A stretch of DNA of 64,000 bases, taken from positions 248,001-312,000 of the forward strand of contig NZ_FNIB01000001.1 in assembly GCF_900103805.1 (NCBI RefSeq). Direction: 5' to 3'. Source of the stretch: Cryobacterium flavum (GTDB lineage Bacteria; Actinomycetota; Actinomycetes; Actinomycetales; Microbacteriaceae). Positions 6,821-24,027 of the stretch are shown here, in pieces. Position numbers and translations under genes: made by a program. How positions within the stretch are numbered: position 1 is the first letter of the stretch; every line of letters starts with the position of its first letter. A model generated the notes under the pieces. The model saw only the letters and a program-made list of their open reading frames with translations, was not told the origin of the DNA and made no database searches.

Positions 6821-7846
6821 TTAGCTGGCTGGGTCGGTGATGAAACCCTCCTCGATCATCCACTCATAGGCCACATCGGCGGGTTCGGCACCGTCGACGT
6901 CAACTTGACGGTTCATGCCGCGCAGGACCTCGTCGGTGAGTTTCGGTGATATCTTGGCGAAGACCTTTTCCAGGCCGGGGTGGGCCTTGATTGTGTCGGT
7001 GAAGAAGATCGGTGCCACGTTGTATGCCGGGAAAAATGCGAGGTCATCGGTCAGGACTGTGAGGTCGAGCGCGTCGAGGCGACCGTCAGTTGTGAAGACT
7101 TCGCCGAAGTTGCAGGCGCCGTTGTCGGTTGCGCTGTAGATGGCACCGGTGTCGTAGATGCCGATGTTGCTGTCGGGCACGCCGTTGGCGGTGCCACGTT
7201 CCAGTCCGTAATGGGCGAGCATGGGGTTCAGGCCGTCTGGCCGGGAGTTGAATTCGGACTCGACGCAGAAGGTGCGATCCTCGACCGGCAACGCGGCAAG
7301 TTCGGACATGGCCGTGATGCCGCCGAGGTCGGCGACTGCCTCACTGCGCACAGCGAGGGCGTAGGTGTTGTTCATCGGTGCCGGCGCGCCCCAGGTGACA
7401 CCGTTGGTGAGGTCGAGGTCGTACACGGCCTGCCACATTTCGTTCTGGTCAGTGATCGCCTCGGCCTGACCGAGGTAGGTCAACCATGCGGTTCCGGTGT
7501 AATCCCAGAGCACGTCGGCCTGGCCAGAGAGAAGCAGCTCGCGGGCCGGCTGGCTGCCGGGCACGTTACTGAGGTCAGTGACGTCGAATCCAGCGGCGGT
7601 CCCGGCGAGCACCGCGATCTTGCCGAGCAGTAGCTGCTCAGTGAAGTTCTTGGACGTGACGGTGAGGTCGACACCGTCGGCACCGTCGAGCGGGGTGATC
7701 GACCCGGGTCCAACCGCGGGAACGTATGAGGTCGCCGGTTGCAGTCCGCAGCCGGTCAGGGCGACGGCGGACAGGGCGAGGACGCTCGTTGCTTGAGCCC
7801 AGTGGCCGACGTGTCCGCGGCGGGTGTGAAAAGAGGGGCGGTGCAT
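6821..7846 (-). CDS. Betaine/choline-type ABC transporter substrate-binding lipoprotein
   Basis: This 341-residue protein has an N-terminal hydrophobic segment ending in the lipobox LTGC (about residues 30-33), so it is anchored to the outer membrane face by a lipid on cysteine. The mature part (VDLTVTSKNFTEQLLLGKIAVLAG, LWDYTGTAWLTYLG) follows the OpuC/ProX-like fold that binds glycine betaine, choline or carnitine. It is the last gene of a four-gene minus-strand operon and starts one base after the preceding permease ends. Its role is substrate capture for osmoprotection or methylamine nutrition. Confidence 0.88.
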   Translation of the reverse strand: MHRPSFHTRRGHVGHWAQATSVLALSAVALTGCGLQPATSYVPAVGPGSITPLDGADGVDLTVTSKNFTEQLLLGKIAVLAGTAAGFDVTDLSNVPGSQPARELLLSGQADVLWDYTGTAWLTYLGQAEAITDQNEMWQAVYDLDLTNGVTWGAPAPMNNTYALAVRSEAVADLGGITAMSELAALPVEDRTFCVESEFNSRPDGLNPMLAHYGLERGTANGVPDSNIGIYDTGAIYSATDNGACNFGEVFTTDGRLDALDLTVLTDDLAFFPAYNVAPIFFTDTIKAHPGLEKVFAKISPKLTDEVLRGMNRQVDVDGAEPADVAYEWMIEEGFITDPAS

Positions 7847-8683
7847 CTAGAGTCCCTTCGGGCGGGCGACGTGTTCTGCTACGCGGCCGATCCAGTCGAT
7901 GAGGAGGGCGAGCAGAGCCACCAATAGGGCTCCGGTGACGAGCACGGGGGTGAGGCTGAGATTGACGCCGGTGGTGATGAGGATGCCGAGTCCGCCGCCG
8001 TTGACGAACGTGGCCAGGGCGGCGGTGCCGACCAGCAGAACGAGGGCGGTACGCACGCCTGACAGCATGACCGGCACGGCAAGAGGGAGTTCCACGCGAA
8101 AGAGCACGGCTGTGGAGCTCATGCCCATGCCACGTCCGGCTTCGATGAGGCGGGCGTCGACCTGCTGCAGGCCGACCATGGTGTTGCGCAGCACCGGGAG
8201 CACCGCGTAGAGCACGAGGCTCAGCGTCGCTGCCCAGAAGCCGAAACCAACCCAGAATGCGAGGAGGACGACGACGCCGATCGCAGGGGCGGCTTGACCA
8301 ACATTGGCGATCGCGAGCACCGGAGCGGTCAGAAACCGCAGGGATCGTCGGGTCAGGGCGATTCCCAAGGGAATCGCGATGACCAACACGATCACCGCGG
8401 CGAGGAGGGTGAGCTGGATATGCTGCACGGTGTAAACCCAGAGCGCGTCCGGGGCGAGTGTGGTCAGTTCGATCGGCGACAGGTTGGCCGTCAGTAGCCA
8501 GATGACGAGCGCGAGGAATGCGAGCAGAATACCGGCCAGCTGGTAGACCAGTCCCCGCCAGGATTGCCATACCGCGCTGGCACGACTGACCGGTACTGCC
8601 GGCGCGGCCGGGTCGCCGGGTGTTTCGACGGCGGAGTCGCCGCCGGAAATGCCGGCTTCTGTAGTTCGGCGGCGGGTGCTCAT
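7847..8683 (-). CDS. OpuC-type ABC transporter permease
   Basis: This 278-residue membrane protein has a hydrophilic N-terminal tail and about six helices. The inner-membrane-component motif is near residues 180-200 (EAGRGMGMSSTAVLFRVELP), the EAA loop that contacts the ATPase. The ATG start overlaps the ATPase stop (ATGA at 8680-8683). With the second permease in this operon (9983-10624) it forms the heterodimeric channel of a betaine/choline importer. Confidence 0.9.
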   Translation of the reverse strand: MSTRRRTTEAGISGGDSAVETPGDPAAPAVPVSRASAVWQSWRGLVYQLAGILLAFLALVIWLLTANLSPIELTTLAPDALWVYTVQHIQLTLLAAVIVLVIAIPLGIALTRRSLRFLTAPVLAIANVGQAAPAIGVVVLLAFWVGFGFWAATLSLVLYAVLPVLRNTMVGLQQVDARLIEAGRGMGMSSTAVLFRVELPLAVPVMLSGVRTALVLLVGTAALATFVNGGGLGILITTGVNLSLTPVLVTGALLVALLALLIDWIGRVAEHVARPKGL

Positions 8684-9990
8684 TGACCGGCCCGCGCGTC
8701 GGCGCCGTTGCTCTCGGTCTCGTTCAGGTCGGCGTCGGTGGCAGGCGCCTGCGCTTGGAACACGCCGGTGTTTAGTCCGACGGGCGCTTGGTCCGACTCG
8801 AGCACGGCAGCGGTCTGTGAACGGGTAATGGCGTCCATGACGGTCTGCACGTCGATGACGCCCTTGAACATGTCGCGGCGGCCGGTGACGAGCGCGGCTC
8901 CGGCGCTGGAGACGAGCATTGTGTCGAGTGCGTCATTGAGCGTGGCACGGTAGCCGACGACCGGAAGTTTCGGATCGGGAACGTTGCTAATGAGCTCGAG
9001 GCGGCCGAGCTTGCGGCGGGAGAGCCACTGGATGGGACGGTGACGCTCATCGACGATGACCGCGTGGCCGTGGCCGGCGTCGATGAGGCGGGCTAGGACA
9101 TCCGCTGCCCGTTCGCCGGGGCTTCCCACGACGGCGTCGCCGAACCCGACCTCTGCCACCCGGGTGAGGGTGAGCTGTTTGAGGCCGGCGCCTGACCCGA
9201 TAAAGTTTTCGACGAATTCGTTGGCCGGGTCGCCGAGGATGCGTTCCGGGGTGTCGTACTGTTCGAGCTGGGCGCCCTCGTTGAAGATGGCGATCCAGTC
9301 GCCGAGCTTGACGGCTTCGTCGAAGTCGTGGGTGACGCAGACGATGGTCTTCTGCAGTTCTTCTTGGATGTTGAGTAGTTCGTCTTGCAGGCGTAGGCGG
9401 GTGATCGGGTCGACGGCGCCGAAGGGCTCGTCCATGAGTAGCACGGGTGGGTCGGCCGCGAGGGCGCGCGCCACGCCGACGCGTTGCTGCTGGCCGCCAG
9501 AGAGTTCCTTGGGGTACCGGTTTCGGTAGAGCACCGGGTCGAGGGAGACGAGCTCGAGGAGTTCGTCGACCCGCGCCGCGATACGGGCCTTGTCCCAGCC
9601 GAGCATTTTCGGAACGAGGCCGATGTTGGTGGCCACCGTCATATGGGGAAAGAGCCCCCCGGCCTGAATGACATAGCCGATGCCTCGGCGCAGGGTATCG
9701 CCGTTCATGTTGGTGACGTCGTCACCGTCGACGACGATGCGGCCCTCGGTCGGTTCGATGAGTCGGTTGATCATTTTCAGGGTGGTGGTCTTGCCGCAGC
9801 CCGAGGGGCCGACGAGCATGACGATCTTGCCGGCCGGGATCTCCATGGTCAGACCGTCGACCGCGGGGCGCGCCTGGCCGGGGAAACGCTTAGTGACGTG
9901 GTCCAGCAGGATGTTCGCACCGGTGATGCCTGTCGGGGAATCTTCGGTGCTGGTGGATTCTGCGCTGTTGGATGCAATGAGTTCAGACAC
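8680..9990 (-). CDS. OpuC/ProV-type ABC transporter ATP-binding protein with CBS domains
   Basis: In this 436-residue protein the Walker A is GPSGCGKTT (about 61-69), the signature LSGGQQQRVGVARAL lies around 165-180, and Walker B LLMDEPFGAVDP follows. The C-terminal third (about 270-400) is a CBS pair, the domain that in OpuA-type importers senses ionic strength or nucleotides. The last 40 residues are acidic and probably disordered. It overlaps the upstream permease by eight bases and the downstream permease by four. It energises uptake of a quaternary ammonium osmolyte. Confidence 0.92.
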   Translation of the reverse strand: MSELIASNSAESTSTEDSPTGITGANILLDHVTKRFPGQARPAVDGLTMEIPAGKIVMLVGPSGCGKTTTLKMINRLIEPTEGRIVVDGDDVTNMNGDTLRRGIGYVIQAGGLFPHMTVATNIGLVPKMLGWDKARIAARVDELLELVSLDPVLYRNRYPKELSGGQQQRVGVARALAADPPVLLMDEPFGAVDPITRLRLQDELLNIQEELQKTIVCVTHDFDEAVKLGDWIAIFNEGAQLEQYDTPERILGDPANEFVENFIGSGAGLKQLTLTRVAEVGFGDAVVGSPGERAADVLARLIDAGHGHAVIVDERHRPIQWLSRRKLGRLELISNVPDPKLPVVGYRATLNDALDTMLVSSAGAALVTGRRDMFKGVIDVQTVMDAITRSQTAAVLESDQAPVGLNTGVFQAQAPATDADLNETESNGADARAGQ

Positions 9991-10624
9991 GGATACCTCG
10001 GGGTGTGGTCAGGCGGCCGAGGCCGACGAGAAGGAGGTTAAGAATAAGGGCGAGCACGACAACGCCGATGACGCCCGTCATCACCGACTCGAGGGAGTTG
10101 GCGCCGCCGAGGCGGGACAGGCCGGAGAAGATGAATCCGCCCAGGCCTGGGCCGAGGGAATATGCGGCGATCGCGGCGATTCCCATGACCATTTGAGCGG
10201 ATACCCGAATGCCTGTGAGGATGATTGGCCACGCCATGGGCAGTTCTACCTGCAGGAGCGTGCGGAACCGGCTCATGCCAATGCCGCGGGCGGATTCCAC
10301 GATCGACGGTGCGATACCCGATAGGCCCACGACCGCGTTGCGCAGAATGGGGAGGGTAGCGAAGAACGCTACGACGATGACGGCAGGAACGACGCCGAAG
10401 CCGAGTGGCGCGATGAGCAGCCCGATGAGCGCGAACGATGGGATGGTCAGGCCTATGGCAGACACGGAGTTGGCGATCCCGGTGAGCGCGGAACTGCGGT
10501 AGACGACGGCGGCCAGCACGACGGCGATGACAGTCGCCAGGATCAGGCATTGCACGACGAGGCTAAAGTGCTGCCAACTGCTGAACAGGATCTGCTCATA
10601 CTGATTCCTTACAAAATCCCACAC
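9983..10624 (-). CDS. OpuC-type ABC transporter permease (first gene of the operon)
   Basis: This 213-residue protein has about five or six helices and the EAA-like loop ESARGIGMSRFRTLLQVELP (about 112-131), closely resembling the loop of the other permease here. It is the promoter-proximal gene; transcription would begin in 10625-10800. The gene order permease, ATPase, permease, binding protein is typical for OpuC-like systems. A GTG or upstream start is possible, but the ATG used gives a normal family length. Confidence 0.9.
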   Translation of the reverse strand: MWDFVRNQYEQILFSSWQHFSLVVQCLILATVIAVVLAAVVYRSSALTGIANSVSAIGLTIPSFALIGLLIAPLGFGVVPAVIVVAFFATLPILRNAVVGLSGIAPSIVESARGIGMSRFRTLLQVELPMAWPIILTGIRVSAQMVMGIAAIAAYSLGPGLGGFIFSGLSRLGGANSLESVMTGVIGVVVLALILNLLLVGLGRLTTPRGIRV

Positions 10625-11541: not shown

Positions 11542-12951
11542 CTAGCGACGTCCGCGGATGTCGGGGCGGAGCGCCGCCGTTGAGTGCCCGCGGAGCGCTC
11601 CGAGCCAGAGACCTGCCCCGTAGGCGAGGTCGTCGGCTCGGCGTGCGATCCCGAAGCGCACGATGTCGAGTTGCGGTCTGGTTCGTCGGTAGTCGAGGAC
11701 GACGTCGAGTATGGCTGCGGCGATCGTTGCCCGGCGTACCCGTCGGGAGATGATGCTGCCGAGCACCGCGATCGGCCACCAGTGCCGCGTGAGCAGGGCC
11801 ATCGTCTGCGAAACCGATGCGGCGACGCCGGTGGCCGTCAGCTTGATACCGATACGCAGCGGATGCTCGTGGCGGGATAGCTTGCGCGAGATGCGCACTG
11901 CGGCAACGGCCGAAATTCCGAGGGCGAGAGGAACCGACCAGGCCCGCTGGGCGAGCAACGCCACGATGACGCCGACGCTCCAGGGCGCGAGGATCGCCGG
12001 GGCGATGTTGCCTGGATGTCGGAGTGCCAGTGCGTGGCCGCCCGTGCCATAGAACGCTTTGCGCTTGGCCCAGTCGGGAAACGTGACTCGGTGTTCATGG
12101 GCGCTCGTCGCGGCCGGTTCGTAGCGCACCCTCCAGCCCTGTTCGACGAGTGTCCAAACGAGGTCGACGTCTTCGCCGACTCGCATACCGTCGCTGAACC
12201 CGGCGCCGAGGGCTTCGACACGGGCTACGACGAAAGCCGTTGACACCCACGACACCCGCGCGCGAGGCCGCACCGTGGCGGGAGTCGGTCCGAGGTCGAG
12301 CGATGACCGGGCATCTTCGTAACGAGAGATCCAGTTGACTCGGGTCGACAGCTGGAGTCCGATCACTCGCGGGGCGACGAGGGCAACCCTTGGATCAACG
12401 AAGTGTCGGAGCAATATTGCTACAGCACCGTCGGTGACGACCATGTCGTTGTCGACGAACACTACATAGGTCGTGTGCACCAATCGCAGCCCCGCATTGC
12501 GGGCGCCGGCCGGACCCAGATTCTCGGGCAGAGCGATGAAACGGGCTCCCGCTGCGGCGGCGATTCGTTTCGCATCGCTGGGGTCGGGCGAAGCATCATC
12601 GACCACGATGACCGATTTGCGTGGTCCAATACTCGTTAGGAGGCGGTCGAGCGATTCCGGCCGACCGTACGTTGGAATCACGTAGGTGACGTCGCTCTCA
12701 TCCGCTGCCGGGAGCGTGTCGAGTACCGGATCGGCCATGCCAATTTCGAGCAGCTTGTCAACGAGGGCGCCCGAGCCGGCACGGTCGACGGCCAGGAGGC
12801 GCCCGGCGAACATTCTGACGGCGGCCCGGGAGAGATAGATTGCGCGGGTCGGGGAGCCTCCGACCAAGGATCGGCCTTGGTCACGGACCGTGACCGTGCG
12901 GTTGAGTTCGACCGTGAAACCGGGTGGGAGCAGAGCAGCGGGCGGCTTCAT
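11542..12951 (-). CDS. mftF: Mycofactocin glycosyltransferase MftF
   Basis: This 469-residue protein starts at the ATG overlapping the mftE stop (ATGA, 12948-12951); the longer frame upstream is antisense-like and rejected. A family-2 glycosyltransferase domain is clear: VTYVIPTYGRPESLDRLL, VIVVDDASPD, then VVFVDNDMVV as the metal-binding acidic motif (about residues 85-185). Hydrophobic segments near residues 330-420 suggest membrane association. In the described pathway MftF adds beta-1,4-linked glucose units to the premycofactocin core. It is the last gene of the long mft operon, and mobile debris follows at once. Confidence 0.92.
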   Translation of the reverse strand: MKPPAALLPPGFTVELNRTVTVRDQGRSLVGGSPTRAIYLSRAAVRMFAGRLLAVDRAGSGALVDKLLEIGMADPVLDTLPAADESDVTYVIPTYGRPESLDRLLTSIGPRKSVIVVDDASPDPSDAKRIAAAAGARFIALPENLGPAGARNAGLRLVHTTYVVFVDNDMVVTDGAVAILLRHFVDPRVALVAPRVIGLQLSTRVNWISRYEDARSSLDLGPTPATVRPRARVSWVSTAFVVARVEALGAGFSDGMRVGEDVDLVWTLVEQGWRVRYEPAATSAHEHRVTFPDWAKRKAFYGTGGHALALRHPGNIAPAILAPWSVGVIVALLAQRAWSVPLALGISAVAAVRISRKLSRHEHPLRIGIKLTATGVAASVSQTMALLTRHWWPIAVLGSIISRRVRRATIAAAILDVVLDYRRTRPQLDIVRFGIARRADDLAYGAGLWLGALRGHSTAALRPDIRGRR

Positions 12952-13706
12952 GCTCGATCTTCCGTGGCGACGGGTGCCGGGACTGTGCACCGGGCGGGGT
13001 CGCGGAGGCAACCGCGGGGGTCGATGGACTCGCCGAGGATCCGGCGCTGCACACCGTCGCACATCTCAGCCATGAGGGCAGCGCCAGTCGTGGCGGTGGC
13101 TCCGGTCGGGTCGCCCAAAATCCCGGTCGGCGACACCGCTCGCACGCCCTCCGACGCGAGCCGGCTAAAAAGGGCAGACATCGGCGTCATCGCGCCAGGC
13201 ACAACCGATGCCAGGTCGACCAACTTGGCGTCGAGATGCAGCAGAATCGATGTCTCGGTGATTCCGGCGTGGGCATCTCCCCGGGCAACCGTGCAGGGAG
13301 CCCAGGCGACAGTGTGACCTTCGCCCCGGAGCAGAGAAACGGATGTGGTGAGCGCAGCAAGGTTTCCGCCATGGCCGTTGACGAGCACAATGCGGCCTGC
13401 CCAGGTCGACAGCGAGCGCACCAGCTCGATCACGACTATCGTGAGCGCTTCGGTGCCGATCGACACGGTTCCCGGAAAATTCTGATGCTCACCACTCGCC
13501 CCGTACTGCAGGGCGGGGGCGACGACGACCGAATGCCCCATGATGGTCAGATCCGTGGCGACTCGCTCTGCCACCGCCGAGGCGATTATGGTGTCGGTGG
13601 AGAACGGCAGGTGTGGTCCATGCTGCTCCGTCGAGCCAAGGGGTACGAGCACGACTGGGGCCGGCGGCAGCGATGGCCAGGTGCTATACGCCAATTCACC
13701 ATCCAC
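12948..13706 (-). CDS. mftE: Mycofactocin precursor peptidase MftE (creatininase family)
   Basis: MftE cleaves the modified precursor to release the C-terminal Val-Tyr-derived unit. The protein shows the creatininase fold signatures: PLGSTEQHGPHLPFSTD (metal ligands E, H and D), NGHGGN, and AHAGITETS with the conserved glutamate. I chose the GTG at 13706 because GAGGGG precedes it by about seven bases, giving 252 residues. A TTG at 13742 would add 12 residues and cannot be excluded. It lies between mftD (88 bases from mftD's stop to this GTG) and mftF (four-base overlap). Confidence 0.92.
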   Translation of the reverse strand: MDGELAYSTWPSLPPAPVVLVPLGSTEQHGPHLPFSTDTIIASAVAERVATDLTIMGHSVVVAPALQYGASGEHQNFPGTVSIGTEALTIVVIELVRSLSTWAGRIVLVNGHGGNLAALTTSVSLLRGEGHTVAWAPCTVARGDAHAGITETSILLHLDAKLVDLASVVPGAMTPMSALFSRLASEGVRAVSPTGILGDPTGATATTGAALMAEMCDGVQRRILGESIDPRGCLRDPARCTVPAPVATEDRA

Positions 13707-13793
13707 TTGTGCCCCCTCGTTCGACTTCAAGTCTGGCCCCAAAAAGTACCGTGCGCCGCCGCCATGGCGGTGACGTGGTTGATAGTGACGTGA

Positions 13794-15002
13794 TTATTGC
13801 CGGGTCGTAGCGTCGACGTTGCTCAGTGTCGCTCCAAGGGTGCGCGAGAACGTTGGCGGGATGTAAAAGTCTGCGGGTGAGAGCTCGTGGATTGAATCAT
13901 GGCCAAGGCCGAGAACGGCCGAGTCGAGTCCGCCACGCAGAATGTCGAGTACGTTTTCGACTCCGGCCTGGCCGTTTGCGGCGAGGCCCCACAGGTAGGC
14001 GCGGCCGATCATGACCGCGCGTGCGCCGAGCGCGAGGGCCTTGGCGACGTCGCTGCCTCGACGGATTCCGCCGTCCAGCACAATTTCCACGTCGCCGCCA
14101 ACGGCTTCGACGACCGACGCGAGCATACGAATTGTCGCCGGTGTTCCGTCGAGGTTGTTGCCGCCGTGGTTGGACACGGAGATGGCGGTTACACCCGTGT
14201 CGACGGCTCGGTGGGCGTCGTCGATGCGGGTGACGCCCTTGAGCATGAAGGGTCCTCCCCAGGTTTCGCGCATCCAGGCGACGTCTTCCCAGGAGGGTGG
14301 CGGCGTCTGCATCCACTCGTAATAGGCGCCGAAGAATGTCGGTGCAGTGCCGCCCGGCGGAGTGAGATTGGGAGCGGTGAGGTCGGGGATACGGCCGGAC
14401 TTCGCGAAGCGCAGGAGCCATTGTGGGTGGGGGAGCACGTTGGGCGCGAAGTTGATCATTGTCTTCAGGCTCATCTTTTCCGGAATCTGCGGGCTGCCCC
14501 AGTCGCGACCGTTGGAGAAGGACCAATCAAGGGTGGCGATGAGTCCCTTGGCGCCGGCGGTCCGGGCCCGGTCCATTCGCTGCACCATCGATTCCCGCGA
14601 TCCCGACCAGTACATTTGGAAGAACGTGTTTGGGTTGGCAGCAATTACGTCTTCAACGGGTTTGCTGGCGAACGAACTCAGGCCCATGATGGTGCCGCGG
14701 TTAGCGGATGCCCGGGCAACGGCCACTTCACCGTCGGGGTGCACGGCCTGCACACCTGTGGGGGAAATGATGACTGGCAAAGAAATGGGGATGCCCATCA
14801 CGGTTGTCGTTAGGTCGCGCACCGCATGGTGCCCGGCGACATGCGGTGAGAAGCCGAGCTCGCCAAACGCTGCCATGTTGTCGTCGATGGTCAGCCCGCG
14901 CTCAGACCCCGCAACGAGGGCACCGTAGACGGAGGAGGGAAGTGCACTCTTGGCTCGTCGCTGTGCCTCGGCAACGGTTTCGAACCATGCGTTTTTTGCC
15001 AT
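13794..15002 (-). CDS. mftD: Mycofactocin system FMN enzyme MftD
   Basis: This 402-residue member of the FMN-dependent alpha-hydroxyacid dehydrogenase family carries ISPTGVQAVHPDGEVAVARA near residue 80-100, SNHGGNNLDGTPA near 275 (catalytic histidine) and VLDGGIRRGSDVAKALALGA for FMN phosphate binding. The SNHGGNNLDG wording, rather than SNHGGRQLDG of lactate oxidases, is characteristic of MftD. MftD oxidatively deaminates the peptide-derived lactam to make premycofactocin, giving the redox-active alpha-keto amide. It follows the VWA gene by 27 bases. Confidence 0.95.
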   Translation of the reverse strand: MAKNAWFETVAEAQRRAKSALPSSVYGALVAGSERGLTIDDNMAAFGELGFSPHVAGHHAVRDLTTTVMGIPISLPVIISPTGVQAVHPDGEVAVARASANRGTIMGLSSFASKPVEDVIAANPNTFFQMYWSGSRESMVQRMDRARTAGAKGLIATLDWSFSNGRDWGSPQIPEKMSLKTMINFAPNVLPHPQWLLRFAKSGRIPDLTAPNLTPPGGTAPTFFGAYYEWMQTPPPSWEDVAWMRETWGGPFMLKGVTRIDDAHRAVDTGVTAISVSNHGGNNLDGTPATIRMLASVVEAVGGDVEIVLDGGIRRGSDVAKALALGARAVMIGRAYLWGLAANGQAGVENVLDILRGGLDSAVLGLGHDSIHELSPADFYIPPTFSRTLGATLSNVDATTRQ

Positions 15003-15029: not shown

Positions 15030-15950
15030 TTAGGTTCTAAAGAGTCGACTGATAGCCGGAGCGACATCGCGGTGGGTGCGCACGAGATGGGCGGTTCCAT
15101 GCCCGGCAGTCGCGAGCTGCCGGCCGAGTTCGATGTCTTTCTCACCGCTCACGTCGATGAGCACGTCGAGTCGCCCCAGCCAGGCCGCGCTTTCCCGTGG
15201 ATCCGGACCCGCATTATGCACACAGTCCGACAATAGGATCACGCGCGCCTCCCGTGTTGGTACCTGCGCCAGCTGACGCGCCGCGAGTTCGAGTGGGAAG
15301 GCGATGTTCGTGAGTCCGCGGGCGGGCATCTGCAAGATGGAATCGAGCAGATCCATCGGCTTCACCTCCCGGCCGAGACCGAGCAGGATGGCTGCGTCCG
15401 ACCAGAACGCGATGACGGCCAGGGAGTCGTGCTGGAGTTCACCCGCGAGGGCACCGACCGTCGCGGCGGCGGTCTGCACTCGCTCGCCTTTCATTGATCC
15501 GGACACATCAACGAGCAGCACCACCGACCGGCGGGTGCGAATGCGCTCCCGCACGATGATGTCTTCGTCTTCCGGAATTGGGTGTTCGGCGAGCATCTCG
15601 ATTGTGCGATCGAGATCGATTTCGTCCGACCCGGCCCGATAGGGCAAACTCGTGAGCTTGCCCGACCCGCGGTGCGCCAGCGAGTCTGTTCTTGGTTGGG
15701 GGATAGCCAGCCTCGCAGCTATCTGCCGGGCTCGGGCGCGCACGCTGGGATCGATGTCGACCACATCGGTGCCACCGAGCACTATTTCACCTATTTCGTC
15801 GGTGTTTCCCGCTTCAGTGGTGCCCGGAGACGATTTGGGCGCGGGACCGCGCCCAATTGTCTGCGCGCGCAACACCACGCCTGCGCTCCCCGCGCCGCCG
15901 GGCTCAAAGACCACCGGATCCTCCGTGAGCTGTTTCGGCTTGCGACCCAA
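15030..15950 (-). CDS. VWA-domain protein (partner of the MoxR-type ATPase)
   Basis: This 306-residue protein has a von Willebrand A domain in its C-terminal half. The MIDAS metal site is DVSGSM (about 148-153), with a conserved Thr in GLTN (about 215) and Asp in LLSDC (about 247). The N-terminal 130 residues are polar. The assigned TTG start at 15950 is weak: the same frame stays open back to the MoxR stop and reads DTPLSRPDRQKRARTALG, which looks coding but offers no ATG or GTG. MoxR/VWA pairs typically act together as metal- or cofactor-insertion chaperones. It is not one of the named Mft genes, and its place between the SDRs and mftD suggests service to a mycofactocin enzyme. Confidence 0.85.
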   Translation of the reverse strand: MGRKPKQLTEDPVVFEPGGAGSAGVVLRAQTIGRGPAPKSSPGTTEAGNTDEIGEIVLGGTDVVDIDPSVRARARQIAARLAIPQPRTDSLAHRGSGKLTSLPYRAGSDEIDLDRTIEMLAEHPIPEDEDIIVRERIRTRRSVVLLVDVSGSMKGERVQTAAATVGALAGELQHDSLAVIAFWSDAAILLGLGREVKPMDLLDSILQMPARGLTNIAFPLELAARQLAQVPTREARVILLSDCVHNAGPDPRESAAWLGRLDVLIDVSGEKDIELGRQLATAGHGTAHLVRTHRDVAPAISRLFRT

Positions 15951-16013
15951 CGCGGTTCTGGCCCGTTTCTGGCGGTCCGGCCTCGAAAGGGGTGTATCCG
16001 CTTCGATCTCCCT

Positions 16014-16928
16014 TCAACCCGGCTCGGCAATGGCCGGTTCCAGAATGAAATGGTCTTCCCAGATCTGTCGCAACACGCGCTCGGGCGTGCTTTCCGCGGC
16101 CTCGTCGAGGTGGATGCGGCCGGACAGGGAGACGGTCATGGCATCGTAGACGAGTTCTTTGTAGCCGTCGTCGTGCGGTGACCTGAGGTGTCGAAGCAGT
16201 GCGAGTTGCAGCGCGACGAGGACGCAGTCAATTGCGCCGCGCACGCTGCTTCCCTGGCGTACATCCGGGTGACGCCTCGTTGCCCGGGTGACGGATACCG
16301 CGTCGATAACGAGGCGATTGGCGAGATCACCGTCGGCCTGGGTGCGAAGCGTGACGATTCCGCGTTCGGCTGGCTCGTCCTGATAGCCGATCGCGAGTCG
16401 GTTCAACCGGTCGTGCACGCTCGTCGACAACCGCGTCGTGCCGACGTTGTCATAGGGGTTCATCGACGCAACTACTCGGAAGGTCGGCGCCGCGATGATG
16501 GTGCCGACCCGGGGCACCGCGATGGCGCGATCGGCCATTGCGGTGAGCAGTGTGTTGAGGGTGTCTTCCGGTGCCCGGTTGAACTCCTCTATATAGAGGA
16601 ACCCGCCGCGTTGCATCGCTTCGATGAGGGGCCCAGCCACGAAGTTGTCGGCGCTGTAGTCCTCCCGCAGCACCCGCGCGGGATTGTGGTGGCCAACGAG
16701 TTTGGCTGGGGTGAGGTCGGCATTGCCCTCGACGAAGTGCAAGGGGATACCCCATTCTTCGGTGATGGCTTTCAGTATGGTGGTTTTGCTAGTCCCCGGT
16801 GGCCCCTCAAGCAGGATGTCGCGGCTAGCTGCGATGGCCGCGAGCGTCAGTTCGAGCTCACGCTCCCGGCCGACAAGGTGCGCGGCTACCCGTTTCTGGG
16901 TGTCGACGATGGTACTGGTGGGTGCCAC
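16014..16928 (-). CDS. MoxR-family AAA+ ATPase
   Basis: In this 304-residue protein the Walker A is GPPGTSKTT (about 42-50, with Ser where many MoxR proteins have Gly). The Walker B region is GGFLYIEEFNRAPED (about 108-122), sensor 1 is VASMNPYDNVG, and HDRLN contains the arginine-finger area. These are MoxR/CoxD-like features. Such ATPases remodel or activate client enzymes with a VWA partner, here the next gene, whose start is 63 bases downstream. Transcribed 30 bases after the third SDR gene, it belongs to the mft operon by position. Confidence 0.92.
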   Translation of the reverse strand: MAPTSTIVDTQKRVAAHLVGRERELELTLAAIAASRDILLEGPPGTSKTTILKAITEEWGIPLHFVEGNADLTPAKLVGHHNPARVLREDYSADNFVAGPLIEAMQRGGFLYIEEFNRAPEDTLNTLLTAMADRAIAVPRVGTIIAAPTFRVVASMNPYDNVGTTRLSTSVHDRLNRLAIGYQDEPAERGIVTLRTQADGDLANRLVIDAVSVTRATRRHPDVRQGSSVRGAIDCVLVALQLALLRHLRSPHDDGYKELVYDAMTVSLSGRIHLDEAAESTPERVLRQIWEDHFILEPAIAEPG

Positions 16929-16958: not shown

Positions 16959-17798
16959 TTACTTGATGGATGCTCCACCGTCGACCGGGATCTGGCCTCC
17001 GCTGACGTAGTATGACTGGTCGGAGGCGAGCCAGGCGACCGCGTTCGATACGTGGATTGGCTCGATCCAAGCCTTGCCCATGGGGTTCAGCCCGGCGAAG
17101 GCGGGTTCGGCATCCTCGGCCTGAGGATCGTCAAGGTCTGGGCGGAACAGCTTGTAGGTGTTGCTGTTCTTCACCATCTTCGTGTCGATCGAGTTCGGGT
17201 GGATCGTGTTAACCCGAATTCCGTGAGGACCGAGTTCATTGGCGAGTACCTTCATCAGGCCGACGATGCCGTGCTTGGTAGTCGTATAGGCGGCGACGTT
17301 GGCGAGTCCCTTGAATCCCGCCAGTGAGGAGATAATAATGACCGATCCACCGGCACCGGATGCGATCAGATGGTCGGCAGCGGCTTTGTAGGTGTGCCAT
17401 ACCCCGGTCAGGTTAATGTCCATGAGGTCTTTCCAGGACTGCTCTTCGATCTTCTGGGTGTCCGATCCGAAGGTGAAGATTCCGGCGTTGGCGACGATGA
17501 TGTCGAGCCGTCCCAGTTCTGCGACGCCCTCATCCACGGCCTTGGTCAGCGCGTCGATATCGCGCACATCCGCCTGTTTCGCCACGATACGCCGGTCGAG
17601 AGCTTCGACCTGCCGTACGGTCTCCGCCAGGTCCTCGGCGGTTGCTGGCTCATAGAATGTGGTGACGCTGTCGACGCCCTCGCAGAGGTCGATCGCGATG
17701 ATGTCGGCGCCCTCCTGCGCCAGACGAATGGCGTGGCTTCTGCCCTGCCCTCTCGCTGCGCCGGTGATGAAGGCGACTTTGCCGTCGAGGTTTCCCAT
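16959..17798 (-). CDS. Mycofactocin-coupled SDR oxidoreductase 1
   Basis: This is a 279-residue short-chain dehydrogenase from the ATG at 17798 (GNLDGKVAFITGAARGQGRS). TGAARGQGRSHA (about 12-23) is the NAD-binding glycine motif typical of mycofactocin-coupled SDRs, followed by the extra loop (residues 40-65) of that subfamily. The NAG motif is IVANAGIF, and the catalytic set is SSLAGFKG (Ser) and YTTTKHG (Tyr and Lys). Family members keep NAD tightly bound and pass electrons to mycofactocin. The substrate, an alcohol, is unknown. It is the most divergent of the three tandem copies. Confidence 0.92.
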   Translation of the reverse strand: MGNLDGKVAFITGAARGQGRSHAIRLAQEGADIIAIDLCEGVDSVTTFYEPATAEDLAETVRQVEALDRRIVAKQADVRDIDALTKAVDEGVAELGRLDIIVANAGIFTFGSDTQKIEEQSWKDLMDINLTGVWHTYKAAADHLIASGAGGSVIIISSLAGFKGLANVAAYTTTKHGIVGLMKVLANELGPHGIRVNTIHPNSIDTKMVKNSNTYKLFRPDLDDPQAEDAEPAFAGLNPMGKAWIEPIHVSNAVAWLASDQSYYVSGGQIPVDGGASIK

Positions 17799-17856: not shown

Positions 17857-18690
17857 TTACTTGACGAGGTTGCCCGCGTCCACGGGGAGGGTAACGCCGG
17901 TGATGAATCTCGCCTCGTCGGAGGCCAGGAACAATACCGCGTTGCTGATATCGACCGGCTCCACCCAAGGCACTGGCAGGGCGTTGATACTCTTGAAAGC
18001 CTCGACTGCCGAATCCTGAGTGGGGTTCGCATTGGCCGGATCGAACAACCCCCAAACGTCTTCGTTCTGGATCATGATTGTGTTGACCGTTGTTGGATGC
18101 ACCGAGTTCACTCGAATTGAGTATTGGGCGAACTCGTTGGCAAGCGTCCGCATGATGCCGACGACCCCGTGCTTGGCTGCTGTGTAGTGGACGGTGTTAG
18201 CGAGTCCTTTGAGCCCCGCAGTCGAACTGGTAAGAATGATCGACCCGCCTCGTCCGCCTTTGATGAGGTGCGGTAGGGCCGCCTTGCAGGTGTTCCAGAC
18301 GCCGGTCAGATTAATGTCGATGGTTTCCTGCCATGCGGCATCGTCAAGCTCGAGCGCCGGGGACATCTGAAAGATTCCCGCGTTGGCCGACACGATATCG
18401 AGCCGTCCGAGCTGAGCGACTCCATCGTCCATCACCGCTTTTAGCGCTGCTGAGTCACGTACATCGGCCTGTGTAGCGATGATGCGGCGATCCAATGCTT
18501 CCACCTGACGCACGGTCTCGGCCAGATCCTCTGCGGTGGCCATTGGGTATGCATGCACCGACTCAACAGGACCGACGATGTCGACCGCAATGATGTCCGC
18601 GCCCTCCTGGGCCAGTCGCAGCGCATGACTGCGCCCCTGACTTCTAGCGGCACCGGTGATGAACGCTACCTTGCCTTCTACTCTTCCCAT
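17857..18690 (-). CDS. Mycofactocin-coupled SDR oxidoreductase 2
   Basis: This 277-residue SDR starts VEGKVAFITGAARSQGRS. The glycine motif reads TGAARSQGRSHA, with Ser replacing the Gly found in both neighbours. The catalytic residues are in LTSSTAGLKG and HYTAAKHG. The C-terminus is PVDAGNLVK. It sits 58 bases upstream of SDR 1 and 38 bases downstream of SDR 3 with the same orientation, indicating tandem duplication within the operon. The likely role is alcohol oxidation using a non-exchangeable NAD reoxidised by mycofactocin. Confidence 0.92.
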   Translation of the reverse strand: MGRVEGKVAFITGAARSQGRSHALRLAQEGADIIAVDIVGPVESVHAYPMATAEDLAETVRQVEALDRRIIATQADVRDSAALKAVMDDGVAQLGRLDIVSANAGIFQMSPALELDDAAWQETIDINLTGVWNTCKAALPHLIKGGRGGSIILTSSTAGLKGLANTVHYTAAKHGVVGIMRTLANEFAQYSIRVNSVHPTTVNTIMIQNEDVWGLFDPANANPTQDSAVEAFKSINALPVPWVEPVDISNAVLFLASDEARFITGVTLPVDAGNLVK

Positions 18691-18728: not shown

Positions 18729-19562
18729 TTACTTGATGCTGCCGCCCGCGTCGACAGGCAGGGTAACGCCGGTGATGTATCTAGCCTCGTCGGAGGCCAG
18801 GAACAGTAACGCATTGGAAATATCAATTGCTTCCAGCCACGGAATCGGCAGCGCCTGCATAGCAACCGATGCAGTCTTGAAGTCTTCGCGGGTGGGGTTC
18901 TTCAGGTCAGGGCGGAATAGCTTGTAGATTGCCTCGTTCTGGATCATGTCGGTGTTAACCTGCGTCGGGTGGATACTGTTCACACGGATCATGTGTGGTG
19001 CCAGTTCAAGGGCCAGCGTTCGCATGAGTCCCACGACACCGTGCTTAGCTGCGGTGTAGTGGGCGAGGTTCTGGTAGACCATCAGAGCGGCGTTGGAACT
19101 GGTCAGGATGATGGATCCACCGCGCCCGCCGGCCTTGATGTGCGGGATTGCTGCTTTTGTGGTGCGCCAGACACCGGACAGGTTCACGTTGATCATGTCT
19201 GTCCAGATCTCCTCCGATAGCTCCTCGGTGGGTGCCATGTCGGTTACGATGCCGGCGTTGGCCGACACGATGTCGAGGCGTCCGAGCTGCGCTACACCCT
19301 CATCCACTGCGGATTTCAGGGCGTCAAAATCGCGCACATCCGCCTTAGTAGCGATGATGCGACGATCGAGTGCCTCGACCTGACGAACGGTCTCGGCCAG
19401 ATCTTCTTCCGTGGCCCCGGCGTACGGCGCTCCGGGAATGTCCTCACAGACATCGATCGCGATGATATCTGCGCCTTCTTGTGCCAGTCGGATAGCGTGA
19501 CTACGCCCCTGGCCTCTGGCTGCACCCGTGATGAATGCGACTTTGCCTTCTACTCTTCCCAT
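18729..19562 (-). CDS. Mycofactocin-coupled SDR oxidoreductase 3
   Basis: This is a 277-residue SDR beginning GRVEGKVAFITGAARGQGRS, with GAGG-less Rossmann motif TGAARGQGRSHA, SANAGIV, and the catalytic TSSNAALMV and HYTAAKHG. It is the first of three tandem copies in transcription order and is preceded by AGGAGG a few bases before its ATG. It shares long identical stretches with SDR 2, such as ADVRDFDALKS versus ADVRDSAALKA. It is probably a client enzyme of mycofactocin. Confidence 0.92.
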   Translation of the reverse strand: MGRVEGKVAFITGAARGQGRSHAIRLAQEGADIIAIDVCEDIPGAPYAGATEEDLAETVRQVEALDRRIIATKADVRDFDALKSAVDEGVAQLGRLDIVSANAGIVTDMAPTEELSEEIWTDMINVNLSGVWRTTKAAIPHIKAGGRGGSIILTSSNAALMVYQNLAHYTAAKHGVVGLMRTLALELAPHMIRVNSIHPTQVNTDMIQNEAIYKLFRPDLKNPTREDFKTASVAMQALPIPWLEAIDISNALLFLASDEARYITGVTLPVDAGGSIK

Positions 19563-19814: not shown

Positions 19815-21215
19815 CTAACTACAGCCGCACGTTCCTTCTCCGCAGCTCTCCCCGGCGCAGCTGGATTGCGAAGTTGCGAGCAGGTTCATCCCGGCCAGTG
19901 GGCTCTCGTCACAAGCTCCTGCCGGTGGTTGTTCGGGCGTGAACCCGACGAGAGGACTGACTTCGCAGTCGCTGGCGTTCACTGGAACCATCCCGGCGCG
20001 ACGGCTCAGTGTGAGCTGTACCGAGCCCATTCCTTCGCGTCCGGCTCGGGTAGTGCGGTGGGAGTGGTCGACGATTGACGATTTTGGAAGCTCTACCGCT
20101 TTGCCCTTGCGGTTCTTTAGCAACTCTTCGCCGTAGCCCTGGACGCATTCCGGGTCGGGACCATCCAGCGGTAATCCAGTGAAGAATTTGGCGGCCATGC
20201 AGCCGCCCTTGCAAGTGTCGAAAAACGCGCATGAGGTGCACGCTCCACCCGACTGCGGTTCGCGCAGTTTGAGAAAGAGTTCCGAGTGCTGCCAGACCTC
20301 CTGGAAGCCGCCCTCTGAGCGCACATTGCCGGCGAGGAACTCTTCGTGAATGGCGAAGGGGCACGCGTAGACGTCCCCGACGGGGTCTATGAGGCAGACA
20401 ACACGACCTGCGCCGCACAGGTTAAGGCCGGGCAGTGCGTCTCCAAAAGCAGAGAGATGGAAGAACGAGTCTCCGGTGAGCACACCATCTCCGTGTGTGA
20501 CGAGCCAGTCGTAGAGTTCGCGCTGCTGCGTTTGGGTCGGGTGCAGTTCGTCCCAGACGTCCGCTCCGCGACCGGAGGGGCGCAGGCGGGTGAGCCGCAA
20601 TTGGGCGTCAAACTTGTCGGCGATGGCCTTGAAGTCGTCGAGCTGGCTGATGTTCTGGCTCGTACAGACGACCGAGATCTTGAATCCCTTGAAGCCGGCT
20701 TCATACATGTTCTGCATGGCGCTCATAGCCGTGGCGTAGGAGCCGGGGCCGCGCACATGATCGTTGACTTCCGCTGTTGCGCCGTCGAGCGAGATCTGCA
20801 CGTCGACGTAGTCGCTTCTGACGAGACGCTGGGCAATCTCCGGGGAGATTTTCACGCCGTTGGTGGAGAATTTGACTCCGACGTGGTGCTCTGATGCGTA
20901 GTCGACGAGTTCCCAGAAATCGGGACGCACGGTCGGCTCGCCGCCGCCGATGTTGACGTAGAAGACCTGCATCCGCTCGAACTCGTCAATGACGGCCTTC
21001 GCCTCTGCCGTCGTCAGCTCGCGAGGATCGCGGCGCCCGGAACTCGAGAGGCAGTGAACACAGGACAGGTTGCAGGCGTAGGTCAGTTCCCAGGTGAGAC
21101 AGATGGGGGCGTCAAGGCCGTATTCGAAGAGATCGACGAGACGCTCGGTCTTTCGGGGAATATCTTTCGGGGCGAGAACGAACGGGGACGTTCGGGGTGC
21201 ATCGAGGAGCGTCAT
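19815..21215 (-). CDS. mftC: Mycofactocin radical SAM maturase MftC
   Basis: This 466-residue enzyme has the radical SAM cysteines C48-x3-C52-x2-C55 (in ELTYACNLSCVHC) and a C-terminal SPASM domain with many cysteines (GAGRVVCL, VYACPF, GACTSCAFFDTCKGGC) for auxiliary iron-sulfur clusters. MftC decarboxylates and crosslinks the last Val-Tyr pair of MftA. It is longer than the roughly 390 residues usual for mycobacterial MftC: about 90 residues follow the SPASM region and end in the cysteine-rich tail SSCAGESCGEGTCGCS. The ATG overlaps the mftB stop (ATGA). Confidence 0.95.
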   Translation of the reverse strand: MTLLDAPRTSPFVLAPKDIPRKTERLVDLFEYGLDAPICLTWELTYACNLSCVHCLSSSGRRDPRELTTAEAKAVIDEFERMQVFYVNIGGGEPTVRPDFWELVDYASEHHVGVKFSTNGVKISPEIAQRLVRSDYVDVQISLDGATAEVNDHVRGPGSYATAMSAMQNMYEAGFKGFKISVVCTSQNISQLDDFKAIADKFDAQLRLTRLRPSGRGADVWDELHPTQTQQRELYDWLVTHGDGVLTGDSFFHLSAFGDALPGLNLCGAGRVVCLIDPVGDVYACPFAIHEEFLAGNVRSEGGFQEVWQHSELFLKLREPQSGGACTSCAFFDTCKGGCMAAKFFTGLPLDGPDPECVQGYGEELLKNRKGKAVELPKSSIVDHSHRTTRAGREGMGSVQLTLSRRAGMVPVNASDCEVSPLVGFTPEQPPAGACDESPLAGMNLLATSQSSCAGESCGEGTCGCS

Positions 21216-21487
21216 GAGGTCCTTTCAACGACCATGGAGGATTTCGCGAGGGTGCCGAGAGCACGCTGATAGCGGGGCAGATCACTCTCAGCGATGCCCG
21301 CGGCCGTGCACGCTGCGCGGGCAGAAGGTACGTCGGCGAGAGTCCTCACGACGGCGAGAAGCGTCGTATCTTTTAGGAATGAGAGCTGGCGGGTACCGAA
21401 ATGGTAGAGCAGCGCACCGAACGGCTCCGGGCGAACAGATACCTGGGGATGGAGATCCCATCCCCGGTCAAGATCCAGGCCGGCCAT
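21212..21487 (-). CDS. mftB: Mycofactocin precursor-binding chaperone MftB
   Basis: This 91-residue protein has the PqqD-like RRE fold of peptide chaperones: VRPEPFGALLYHFGTRQLSFL forms the beta hairpin region and the C-terminal half is helical. MftB binds MftA and delivers it to MftC. The ATG at 21487 lies ten bases after the mftA stop, and the TGA overlaps mftC. Length and order (A, B, C) are canonical. Confidence 0.92.
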   Translation of the reverse strand: MAGLDLDRGWDLHPQVSVRPEPFGALLYHFGTRQLSFLKDTTLLAVVRTLADVPSARAACTAAGIAESDLPRYQRALGTLAKSSMVVERTS

Positions 21488-21496
21488 GTCAGCGAT

Positions 21497-21628
21497 TTAG
21501 TAGACGCCGCACATGCCGTCGATCGAGATCTCCTCGACCAGGGTATCGGATTCGAGATCCAACGCCGCAGAATGTTCAGCGCCGGCGGTTGCGGATTCGG
21601 TGGGGCTGGTCTTTTTTGCGGAAACCAT
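21497..21628 (-). CDS. mftA: Mycofactocin precursor peptide MftA
   Basis: The ATG at 21628 lies six bases after AAGGAG and gives 43 residues ending in ISIDGMCGVY. The IDGMCGVY terminus is diagnostic: MftC modifies the final Val-Tyr and MftE cleaves before it to release the cofactor seed. The preceding acidic leader (ALDLESDTLVEE) is the chaperone-recognition part. The frame runs open 23 codons further upstream, but that stretch overlaps the promoter palindromes and lacks a ribosome site. It is first in the operon, divergent from mftR. Confidence 0.95.
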   Translation of the reverse strand: MVSAKKTSPTESATAGAEHSAALDLESDTLVEEISIDGMCGVY

Positions 21629-21727: not shown

Positions 21728-22360
21728 ATGAATGAATGCTCTGTGGCACCGCGGATGGGCCGACAGCCGCTGACGACCCGCGCCGCCCTGAGCCACGTAG
21801 CACTTCGGCTTTTTCTCGAGCACGGTTTCGACCAGACGACCGTCGACGACATTGCCACCGCCGCCGGAATTGGGCGTCGAACCCTGTTTCGCTACTTTCC
21901 CTCCAAGAACGATCTGCCCTGGGGTGACTTTGACGCTGAACTCGCGCGTATGCGCGCGTTCCTCGCTGCTACGGACACGACCGTGTCTCTCGTCGATGCG
22001 CTCGCCCGGGCGGTCGTCGAATTCAATCGATTTCCGTCAGAAGAGGTCCCCTTTCATCGCGAGCGGATGAACCTGCTGCTGAACGTTCCTGCGCTCGTGG
22101 CGCACTCCACGCTGCGATATGCCGAGTGGCGCCTGGTGGTGTCGGATTTCGCGGCTGGCCGCTTGGGAGTCGCCGTCGACGCGATCGAACCGACAGTGAT
22201 CGGCTGGGTATTCCTCGGTGCATCGCTCGCCGCGTACGAGCAGTGGCTCAGAACTGACGGCTCCAACCTCATTGAGCTGCTCGAGTCGGCCTTGCTCCTG
22301 CTTAAGGAGGGTTTCACGTCGGGTGAATTACCAACAGTTGGACCCGGAGGACAGGCATGA
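21728..22360 (+). CDS. mftR: Mycofactocin system TetR regulator MftR
   Basis: In this 210-residue TetR-family protein the N-terminal helix-turn-helix runs about residues 15-60 (TTRAALSHVALRLFLEHGF, VDDIATAAGIGRRTLFRYFPSKNDL). The C-terminal two thirds would bind a ligand; long-chain acyl-CoA has been reported for the mycobacterial protein. It is divergent from mftA and its stop overlaps the mftG start as ATGA (22357-22360), so regulator and oxidoreductase are co-translated. Confidence 0.93.
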   Translation: MNECSVAPRMGRQPLTTRAALSHVALRLFLEHGFDQTTVDDIATAAGIGRRTLFRYFPSKNDLPWGDFDAELARMRAFLAATDTTVSLVDALARAVVEFNRFPSEEVPFHRERMNLLLNVPALVAHSTLRYAEWRLVVSDFAAGRLGVAVDAIEPTVIGWVFLGASLAAYEQWLRTDGSNLIELLESALLLLKEGFTSGELPTVGPGGQA

Positions 22361-24027
22361 ACCCACGGGTACCGGTGTCGAACTTGACGGACGTGAACTA
22401 TGACGTGATCGTGGTCGGTGCCGGCGCAGCCGGAGCCCCACTCGTAGCCCGACTGAGTGAAGATCCCGAGAGACGGGTGCTGCTCCTTGAGGCAGGACCG
22501 GTGCCGCGGTCCGCCGCCGAATTCCCGCCCGAGTTACTCGATGCTGGAACCGTGCAGGGAGCGACGCCGGGACATCCGCAGAATTGGTCGTTCACAGGTA
22601 ATCTCACACCGAAACTGCCCTACTCAATCGCGCGCGGCCGGATCCTCGGTGGATCATCGACGATCAACGGCTCGTACTTCATTCGTGCAAGAAAAGCCGA
22701 CTTCGATTCCTGGTCTATCGGGTCACCCGAATGGGCCTGGGAAAAGGTATTGCCGTTCTATCGCCGGATCGAAACCGACCTGCAGTATGGCGAGTCCGCC
22801 GTTCACGGTGGTGCGGGGCCGATGGTCGTCGGTCGGCCTCCGCAGGACCATCCAGTGACCGTCGCTTTTCGCGCGGCGGCCGTGGAGCTGGGTTTCGCCG
22901 ACGAACCTGACAAGAACGATCAGGGTATTCCGGGACACGGACCGCTCCCGATGAACACGCTCGACGGCGTGCGTCAGAACACCGGGATCGCCTACCTGAA
23001 TCCGGTGCGGCACCGCAGAAACCTCACGGTGTCGGGTGACAGCTACGTGCGCCGTGTACTGTTCGAGGGAACAAGAGCCATCGGTGTCGAGGTCACGCGG
23101 GGCGGCGGGATGGTTCAGCTGCGAGGCCGAGAGATTGTGCTCTCGGCAGGCGCGATCAAATCACCTCACCTGCTGCTGGTCTCAGGGGTGGGCCCCCGGG
23201 AGCAACTGGAACAATTCAACATTCCAGTCGTGCGCGACTTGCCCGGGGTCGGGGCGAATTTCAGTGATCACCCGGATATCGCCGTGCTGTGGCAGCCGCG
23301 CCGACAGATCGTTGACTACCGCACGTCGCAGTCGATGGCGGCGTGCCTGAACTTCACGGCGACCGGTTCTACTGCGCCCGGGGATCTGGAGATTCTCCCG
23401 ATGCTTAAACCGATGGGGTATCTGTTGACCGGCAGCGCGCGCGGCATCATGGTCGGGGTACGCGCCGCAGCGAGGCGTCCGCTTCGATCACTTCGGGCGA
23501 TGCGCGGGGTGTCGATGCGGCGCTTCGCGAACCAGATCGCCTATCGGGGGGACCTCGCGCTGCTCGTCGCCGTGCAGTCAGAGACTTCGCGCGGACGTAT
23601 CAGCCTCGAGTCGGGCGATCCAGACGTGCAACCGCGCATCGACTACAACTACCTCTCGACCGAACACGACCTCAAACGCATGCGCGAAGTTGTGCGGGTG
23701 GCGGTACATTTGCTGCGAACAGATGCCTACAGGCACCTGTTTAAGCGATTGACCGAACTGACCGACACCGTGCTCGAGAGCGATGAACTGCTCGATGATT
23801 GGCTGCGCTCCCACTTGGGCACCGCCATTCACCTCTGCGGCAGTGCACGGTTTGGGCCAGCAGATGATCCAGGGGCCGTCGTCGATCAATACGGGCGCGT
23901 GCACGGTGTCGAGGGGTTGCGCGTCGCCGACACCTCGATCCTGCCGACCACGCCCGTGCGCGGACCGGCCGCGACCGCCGTTCTCGTCGGGGAGCGCGTG
24001 GCCGACTTTATTCGCCGCGGAATGTAG
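22357..24027 (+). CDS. mftG: Mycofactocin dehydrogenase MftG (GMC family)
   Basis: This 556-residue FAD enzyme of the glucose-methanol-choline family starts with YDVIVVGAGAAGAPLVARL (about 14-32, dinucleotide-binding) and continues with LLLEAG and the GMC signature GRILGGSSTINGSYF. The C-terminal active-site segment is HLCGSARFG (about 492-500, usual catalytic His region) to DTSILPTTPVRGPAATAVLVGERVA. MftG has been linked to reoxidation of mycofactocinol toward the respiratory chain. A 40-codon relic of a second copy lies at 11037-11156. IS30 debris begins about 110 bases downstream. Confidence 0.95.
   Translation: MNPRVPVSNLTDVNYDVIVVGAGAAGAPLVARLSEDPERRVLLLEAGPVPRSAAEFPPELLDAGTVQGATPGHPQNWSFTGNLTPKLPYSIARGRILGGSSTINGSYFIRARKADFDSWSIGSPEWAWEKVLPFYRRIETDLQYGESAVHGGAGPMVVGRPPQDHPVTVAFRAAAVELGFADEPDKNDQGIPGHGPLPMNTLDGVRQNTGIAYLNPVRHRRNLTVSGDSYVRRVLFEGTRAIGVEVTRGGGMVQLRGREIVLSAGAIKSPHLLLVSGVGPREQLEQFNIPVVRDLPGVGANFSDHPDIAVLWQPRRQIVDYRTSQSMAACLNFTATGSTAPGDLEILPMLKPMGYLLTGSARGIMVGVRAAARRPLRSLRAMRGVSMRRFANQIAYRGDLALLVAVQSETSRGRISLESGDPDVQPRIDYNYLSTEHDLKRMREVVRVAVHLLRTDAYRHLFKRLTELTDTVLESDELLDDWLRSHLGTAIHLCGSARFGPADDPGAVVDQYGRVHGVEGLRVADTSILPTTPVRGPAATAVLVGERVADFIRRGM

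Follow-up and report, generated by a model that had tools for sequence, protein, structure and literature searches.

A MoxR–VWA gene pair as a probable accessory part of the mycofactocin system, neighbouring mycofactocin-linked dehydrogenases

Gene order and products at the mycofactocin locus

The window, a stretch of 64,000 nucleotides, belongs to a genome of 4.04 Mb; among named organisms, it is Cryobacterium that provides the nearest protein matches. Its minus strand carries a mycofactocin (mft) gene cluster in the order mftA, mftB, mftC, three SDRs, a MoxR-type ATPase, a VWA protein, mftD, mftE and mftF, all co-oriented (Table 1). The sequence-only reading had placed a MoxR ATPase and a MIDAS-type VWA protein between the SDRs and mftD, in the same orientation and with short gaps, and both open reading frames (ORFs) were recovered in that position; measured from the ORF ends, the gaps amount to 30 bp between SDR3 and MoxR, 63 bp between MoxR and VWA, and 27 bp between VWA and mftD. 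The true start of mftF probably lies later than the ORF start, since its match to the family model covers the ORF only from residue 51 onwards. Behind mftF, on the same strand, an ABC transporter operon of the glycine betaine or choline type extends from 6821 to 10624. ARAGORN called a tRNA-Ala at 26238-26333, on the strand opposite to an acyl-CoA ligase ORF (25141-26847); this call is probably false because Rfam does not list a tRNA-Ala there. The Rfam scan returned a single tRNA and nothing else.

Table 1. Features of the mft locus, with positions in the window and the basis of each assignment.
Feature	Position	Strand	Basis
mftF ORF	11542..13062	-	401.5 bits (NCBIfam cut-off 280)
mftE	12948..13742	-	294.4 bits (NCBIfam cut-off 172)
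mftD, premycofactocin synthase	13794..15002	-	690.7 bits (NCBIfam cut-off 470.85)
VWA protein, 306 aa	15030..15950	-	ORF and Pfam
MoxR-type AAA+ ATPase, type 1 of the pair, 304 aa	16014..16928	-	ORF and Pfam
SDR3, TIGR03971, directly upstream of MoxR, predicted client	16959..17798	-	387.7 bits (cut-off 300)
SDR2, TIGR03971, predicted client	17857..18690	-	413.5 bits (cut-off 300)
SDR1, TIGR03971, predicted client	18729..19562	-	413.5 bits (cut-off 300)
mftC, mycofactocin radical SAM maturase	19815..21215	-	648.2 bits (NCBIfam cut-off 265)
mftB	21212..21487	-	position and related loci
mftA, precursor peptide	21497..21628	-	C-terminus IDGMCGVY
mftR, regulator, divergent	21728..22360	+	264.1 bits (NCBIfam cut-off 224.9)
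mftG, mycofactocin dehydrogenase, divergent	22357..24027	+	461.1 bits (NCBIfam cut-off 387.45)

The ATPase matches the Pfam domains AAA_5 (83.5 bits, cut-off 22) and AAA_3 (58.3 bits, cut-off 27), and possesses a Walker A motif (GPPGTSKT), a Walker B motif (LYIEEF) and a sensor-1 motif (SMN) that are invariant across 13 aligned sequences; these features place it in the MoxR AAA+ family. Assignments to more specific families were rejected. The best NCBIfam profiles, those of GvpN from gas vesicles and of the MadB ATPase, give 70.8 bits (cut-off 266.8) and 48.1 bits (cut-off 475), and a cobaltochelatase-type subunit gives 31.6 bits (cut-off 779.45). PADLOC matches are marginal, the best one scoring 27.1 bits. 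Among sequences of solved structures, midasin is the best match (132 bits), NorQ (49.9 bits) is among the best after it, and CbbQ gives 47 bits; the midasin match suggests membership of the same AAA group and makes no statement on function. A single-chain structure model of MoxR has a mean pLDDT of 67, and its best fold matches are NorQ and CbbQ with a TM of about 0.4 (0.39), a predicted similarity that is claimed at the family level only.

The VWA protein matches VWA_2 (50.6 bits, cut-off 27) and VWA_CoxE (39.7 bits, cut-off 26.4). It contains the full MIDAS set, D148-S150-S152, T214 and D242, which is invariant across 13 aligned sequences, and a VWA partner with the DxSxS-T-D motif is therefore encoded beside the ATPase, as in a MoxR–VWA pair. 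A profile of the protein gave no match to solved structures at E 0.001, and its structure model, with a mean pLDDT of 53, is of insufficient quality for fold comparison. It is uncertain where the VWA gene begins, and the true start may lie further upstream. Between the TTG start and the MoxR stop (15950-16013) the VWA frame is open and reads RQKRAR, much as in relatives with a longer N-terminus, and this interval shows no usual start codon.

Occurrence of the pair and its neighbours

When the VWA alignment was used to search the genome collection, 269 relatives were obtained, and the best 80 of them were used for locus counts. In all of these 80 type-1 loci, VWA is immediately preceded by a co-oriented MoxR gene. 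Within the stretches examined, which reach at most 10 kb to each side and are often shorter, mftC is found in 48 loci, mftD in 53, at least one of mftB-F in 61, and at least one MFT-type SDR in 71. For the 32 loci with no mftC in the stretch, the gene is present elsewhere in 25 of 31 genomes. The six mftC-less genomes comprise two metagenome bins, G002 (where a contig end gives a short match to mftC) and G003, as well as Cryobacterium sp. Y50, Homoserinimonas sp. OAct 916, Leucobacter weissii and Leucobacter sp. wl10.

A class-level sample of 296 genomes was drawn regardless of the pair, and mftC is above the cut-off in 94 of them. The MoxR profile scores at least 200 bits in 18 genomes, the next score being 84, where scoring covered the best 7 candidates per genome and misses are possible. 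All 18 also carry mftC (hypergeometric P 3e-10, with kinship ignored), and MoxR is found in none of the 202 mftC-less genomes; the VWA profile scores at least 195 bits in 15 genomes, all with mftC. Among 149 Microbacteriaceae genomes, mftC occurs in 7, the pair in 8 and both in 6 (Fisher P 1.4e-8). The two that have the pair without mftC, G385 and G444, both keep mftD, and one genome, G342, has mftC without the pair. The conserved linkage with mft genes for which the sequence-only reading had called is thus present in the class sample (18 of 18) and in Microbacteriaceae (6 of 8), and the association of the pair with mftC is far beyond chance.

A core biosynthesis gene would be present in nearly every mftC genome. 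The pair is not such a gene: only 18 of the 94 genomes with mftC have it, and it is missing from the other 76. It is probably an accessory part of the mycofactocin system, and it comes in two types. Genus g17 of the class sample contributes 19 mftC genomes, none of them with the pair. We also note that G164, a class-sample genome with an assembly 93% complete, encodes five SDR1-like SDRs and gives no mftC match at E 1e-80.

In all five tested pair genomes without mftC (G444; G385, which is the same as G004; G001; G007; G008), mftD is above the cut-off, and mftC is above the cut-off nowhere in these genomes. Their loci (L190 in G444, L016/L189 in G004, L007 in G001, L023 in G007 and L028 in G008) have kept the pair, SDRs and mftD, and mftG and mftR are present in four of the five. 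These five genomes may rely on a mycofactocin precursor that other organisms produce and that they import. G444 was considered as a consumer-only genome, with the pair, SDRs and mftG and none of mftA-F; this was rejected, as mftD is encoded about 8.6 kb from VWA. The partial loci resemble the mft set of a Herbiconiux genome that, according to the MftG paper, has mftD, mftF and mftG and is without mftB, C and E (PMC11778925).

The most constant neighbour of the pair is a mycofactocin-linked dehydrogenase, an SDR in type 1 and a zinc alcohol dehydrogenase (ADH) in type 2. Directly upstream of MoxR in the 80 type-1 loci, an MFT-type SDR is found in 67, a divergent SDR in one and a contig end in three, the remaining nine having none of these. 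The position directly after VWA is occupied by mftD in 40 loci, an SDR in 11, mftE in five and no queried gene in 24. Where the stretch contains none of mftB-F (19 loci), the SDR is still directly upstream of MoxR in 14, which include loci from Kineosporia, Rhodococcus, Streptomyces and Microbacterium. Four loci, L018, L051, L056 and L071, have mft genes and the pair, yet no SDR match in the stretch. As side observations, an ORF of about 105-115 aa lies between VWA and mftD or mftE in L051 (10890-11240), L056 (4711-5025) and L058 (10995-11306), and in L175 (genus g26) a pirin gene (PF02678, PF05726) at 9559-10488 is directly upstream of the type-1 pair, in place of an SDR.

The possibility of one dedicated client SDR was rejected with a tree of 212 SDR rows (205 different), in which the SDRs upstream of MoxR do not form one clade and the tree requires 29 changes; the SDRs are exchanged, and the pair persists. 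SDR1-like enzymes were also discarded as a marker of the pair, as 21 loci from pair-less genomes hold SDR1 relatives with up to 69% identity. Position D68 (SDR3 numbering) adjoins the NAD-binding region. All 212 SDR rows of the pair loci have Asp there, versus 7 of 24 SDRs from pair-less genomes; these 24 are best hits only and group together on a tree (branch support 92), so that the comparison is confounded by kinship. In five solved SDR chains, read by eye, the position is D in one, N in two and G in two. Given the kinship-confounded sample and the mixed solved chains, D68 was set aside as evidence for a docking residue and is a lead, a possible candidate for the MIDAS docking site.

The pair was found on two of 72,556 plasmid records, both Rhodococcus megaplasmids. 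On R. qingshengii RQCS_2, MoxR shares 4 bp with an SDR gene whose annotation is mycofactocin-coupled, in a setting of catabolic genes, and on R. ruber pmega_1, two annotated mycofactocin-coupled SDRs flank the pair on the opposite strand. mftC is absent from RQCS_2 and pmega_1, neither of which is among the 10 mftC-bearing plasmids.

The class search also revealed a divergent type 2 of the pair, whose MoxR scores 284-335 bits. Eleven type-2 loci are present in 10 genomes, all 10 of which carry mftC. A zinc ADH is directly upstream of the type-2 MoxR in 10 of the 11 loci, the exception being L181. All seven of the upstream ADHs that were scanned pass TIGR03989 (NDMA-dependent alcohol dehydrogenase), and those of L185, L205 and L206 are assigned by similarity only. 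In genome G104, the type-2 MoxR and VWA are fused in one ORF of 604 residues (L177, 9082-10896). A quick tree of 46 hand-picked MoxRs, some on long branches, places each type on one side of a branch, but the branch that sets off type 1 has a support of 0 and that of type 2 a support of 83; the types are therefore told apart mainly by scores and neighbours.

Comparison with known MoxR–VWA systems

MxaR, together with MxaC/MxaL, represents MoxR–VWA helpers of an alcohol dehydrogenase, the PQQ methanol dehydrogenase, which uses a peptide-derived redox cofactor. That system involves PQQ and calcium, whereas locked NAD and mycofactocin are involved here; the calcium role of these helpers is cited in PMC12657314.

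NorQ/NorD resemble the pair in that an ATPase and a MIDAS-containing VWA partner are encoded beside the client, and NorQ is among the best fold and sequence matches of MoxR. They differ in that NorD, at 69 kDa, has roughly double the length of the VWA protein, and in that NorQD serves a membrane metalloenzyme, into which iron is inserted (PMC13036017). In NorQD, the VWA domain extends a finger into the ring pore, the client is thought to be held by the MIDAS, and a linker stretched by ATP hydrolysis opens the client (PMC13036017, PMC9976466). The MoxR and VWA make-up is shared with the Rubisco activase CbbQ/CbbO, in which a trapped sugar phosphate is freed only if residues of the MIDAS and an acidic Rubisco residue are present, their contact opening the closed active site (PMC5437159). 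In contrast to the pair, the client of CbbQ/CbbO is Rubisco and the ligand a sugar phosphate, CbbO is far longer, and the CbbQ sequence match amounts to only 47 bits. An actinobacterial MoxR–VWA pair beside an oxidoreductase is also formed by MSMEG_0748 and MSMEG_0751 of the mycobacterial CO dehydrogenase cluster, which were shown to interact physically (PMC12657314). MSMEG_0748/MSMEG_0751, unlike the present pair, belong to a molybdenum CO dehydrogenase cluster and not to mycofactocin. None of the clients of NorQD, CbbQO and CoxDE (NO reductase, Rubisco and CO dehydrogenase, respectively) is encoded beside the pair in the window, where the neighbours are mft genes and SDRs; the screen of the relatives' loci covered mft genes.

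Proposed function and alternative explanations

TIGR03971 SDRs and TIGR03989 zinc enzymes were described by Haft and colleagues as occurring only in species with the mycofactocin system, and mycofactocin dependence is known for both dehydrogenase families (PMC3023750). Crystal structures of TIGR03971 enzymes have two loops that encapsulate NAD, and NMR saw no exchange (PMC5264612). Since the pair tracks two unrelated enzyme families whose folds share a locked NAD and the need for mycofactocin, it would most simply act on a shared property. We propose that the pair is an ATP-driven activase for mycofactocin-dependent nicotinoprotein dehydrogenases, which would load NAD or reset dead-end NAD(H); we rate this at about an even chance of being correct. 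Its clients would be the adjacent dehydrogenases, the contact would run through the MIDAS, and the work would concern the NAD pocket rather than folding, metal or mycofactocin. As expected of such an activase, adjacency to a TIGR03971 or TIGR03989 enzyme is observed in 67 of 80 type-1 loci and 10 of 11 type-2 loci.

By analogy, we infer every step of a mechanism in which the VWA adaptor, together with the MoxR ring, would bind the dehydrogenase, likely via the MIDAS site. The docked pair would then pull the closed cofactor pocket open, and in the opened pocket NAD would be loaded or the dead-end NAD(H) state reset. A broader version, in which paralogous MoxR–VWA machines, one for mycofactocin SDRs and one for zinc ADHs, would be the first ATP-driven nicotinoprotein activases and, much like Rubisco activase, would open enzymes that otherwise do not release NAD, is put forward tentatively and with some doubt.

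Two targets had been offered by the sequence-only reading, a dehydrogenase or MftD and mycofactocin biosynthesis. The first has gained ground because an SDR is upstream of the type-1 MoxR and the type-2 pair sits behind zinc ADHs, and because 14 of the 19 loci without mftB-F and the two mftC-less plasmids keep SDRs. In the second, which is less likely but keeps some weight, maturation or activation of MftD, or of a different biosynthesis enzyme, would be the task of the pair, for instance through flavin loading, and the pair would thereby have a biosynthetic role in these lineages. It would fit the position of mftD as the next gene after VWA in half of the loci (40 of 80), the retention of mftD in five of five tested pair genomes without mftC, and the four loci that have mft genes and the pair and no SDR in the stretch. 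However, biosynthesis does not need the pair in general, as 76 of the 94 mftC genomes manage without it, and neither the SDRs kept in the absence of mftB-F nor the type-2 pairs behind zinc ADHs favour a role for MftD. The observations on mftD and the SDR-less loci also count against an activase, as do the ADH-less locus L181, the pirin in place of an SDR at L175, the SDR1-like enzymes in 21 loci from pair-less genomes, the fact that the adjacent SDRs are not one clade, and the weak structure models (pLDDT 53 and 67). Because so many mftC genomes lack the pair, mycofactocin dehydrogenases can work without it.

The pair could also deliver or eject mycofactocin, reduced or oxidised, at the dehydrogenase, NAD not being the target. 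This is improbable, as pair-less genomes use mycofactocin anyway, and we know of no MoxR–VWA precedent for moving an organic carrier like mycofactocin. Mycofactocin dependence is nevertheless the other trait common to both neighbour families (PMC3023750), and the pair follows both. A general stress chaperone carried by chance in these operons is the least probable reading, even though a Synechococcus MoxR shielded citrate synthase from aggregation (PMC11432383): MoxR is absent from all 202 mftC-less genomes of the class sample. The dehydrogenase neighbourhood, moreover, is shared by several families, by both paralogous types of the pair and by plasmids. Insertion of a metal into the client, as is thought for NorQD and the CO dehydrogenase helpers, is very unlikely for the pair as well; type 2 does sit behind a zinc enzyme, but the type-1 pair lies predominantly behind SDRs (67 of 80 loci), whose catalytic triad is metal-free. 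The triad is noted in PMC3023750, and known MoxR–VWA pairs act in metal insertion (PMC13036017, PMC12657314), which speaks in favour of such a role.

In the openly licensed PMC literature, as far as its text is available, no paper was found that ties a MoxR–VWA pair to mycofactocin; in PMC8191103, PMC7105596 and PMC10520049, both topics are named in unrelated table rows. The MoxR–VWA pair is read as a probable accessory part of the mycofactocin system that is tied most constantly to mycofactocin-linked dehydrogenases. It indicates that the mycofactocin system has lineage-specific accessory parts besides mftA-G and mftR. The question of how NAD-locking mycofactocin dehydrogenases get loaded, or handle a stuck or damaged cofactor, now has testable genes. 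If the activase proposal is true, the range of MoxR–VWA machines would grow beyond metal centres and Rubisco to include nicotinamide enzymes, and the pair would be a co-expression partner that may help mycofactocin dehydrogenases in biocatalysis.
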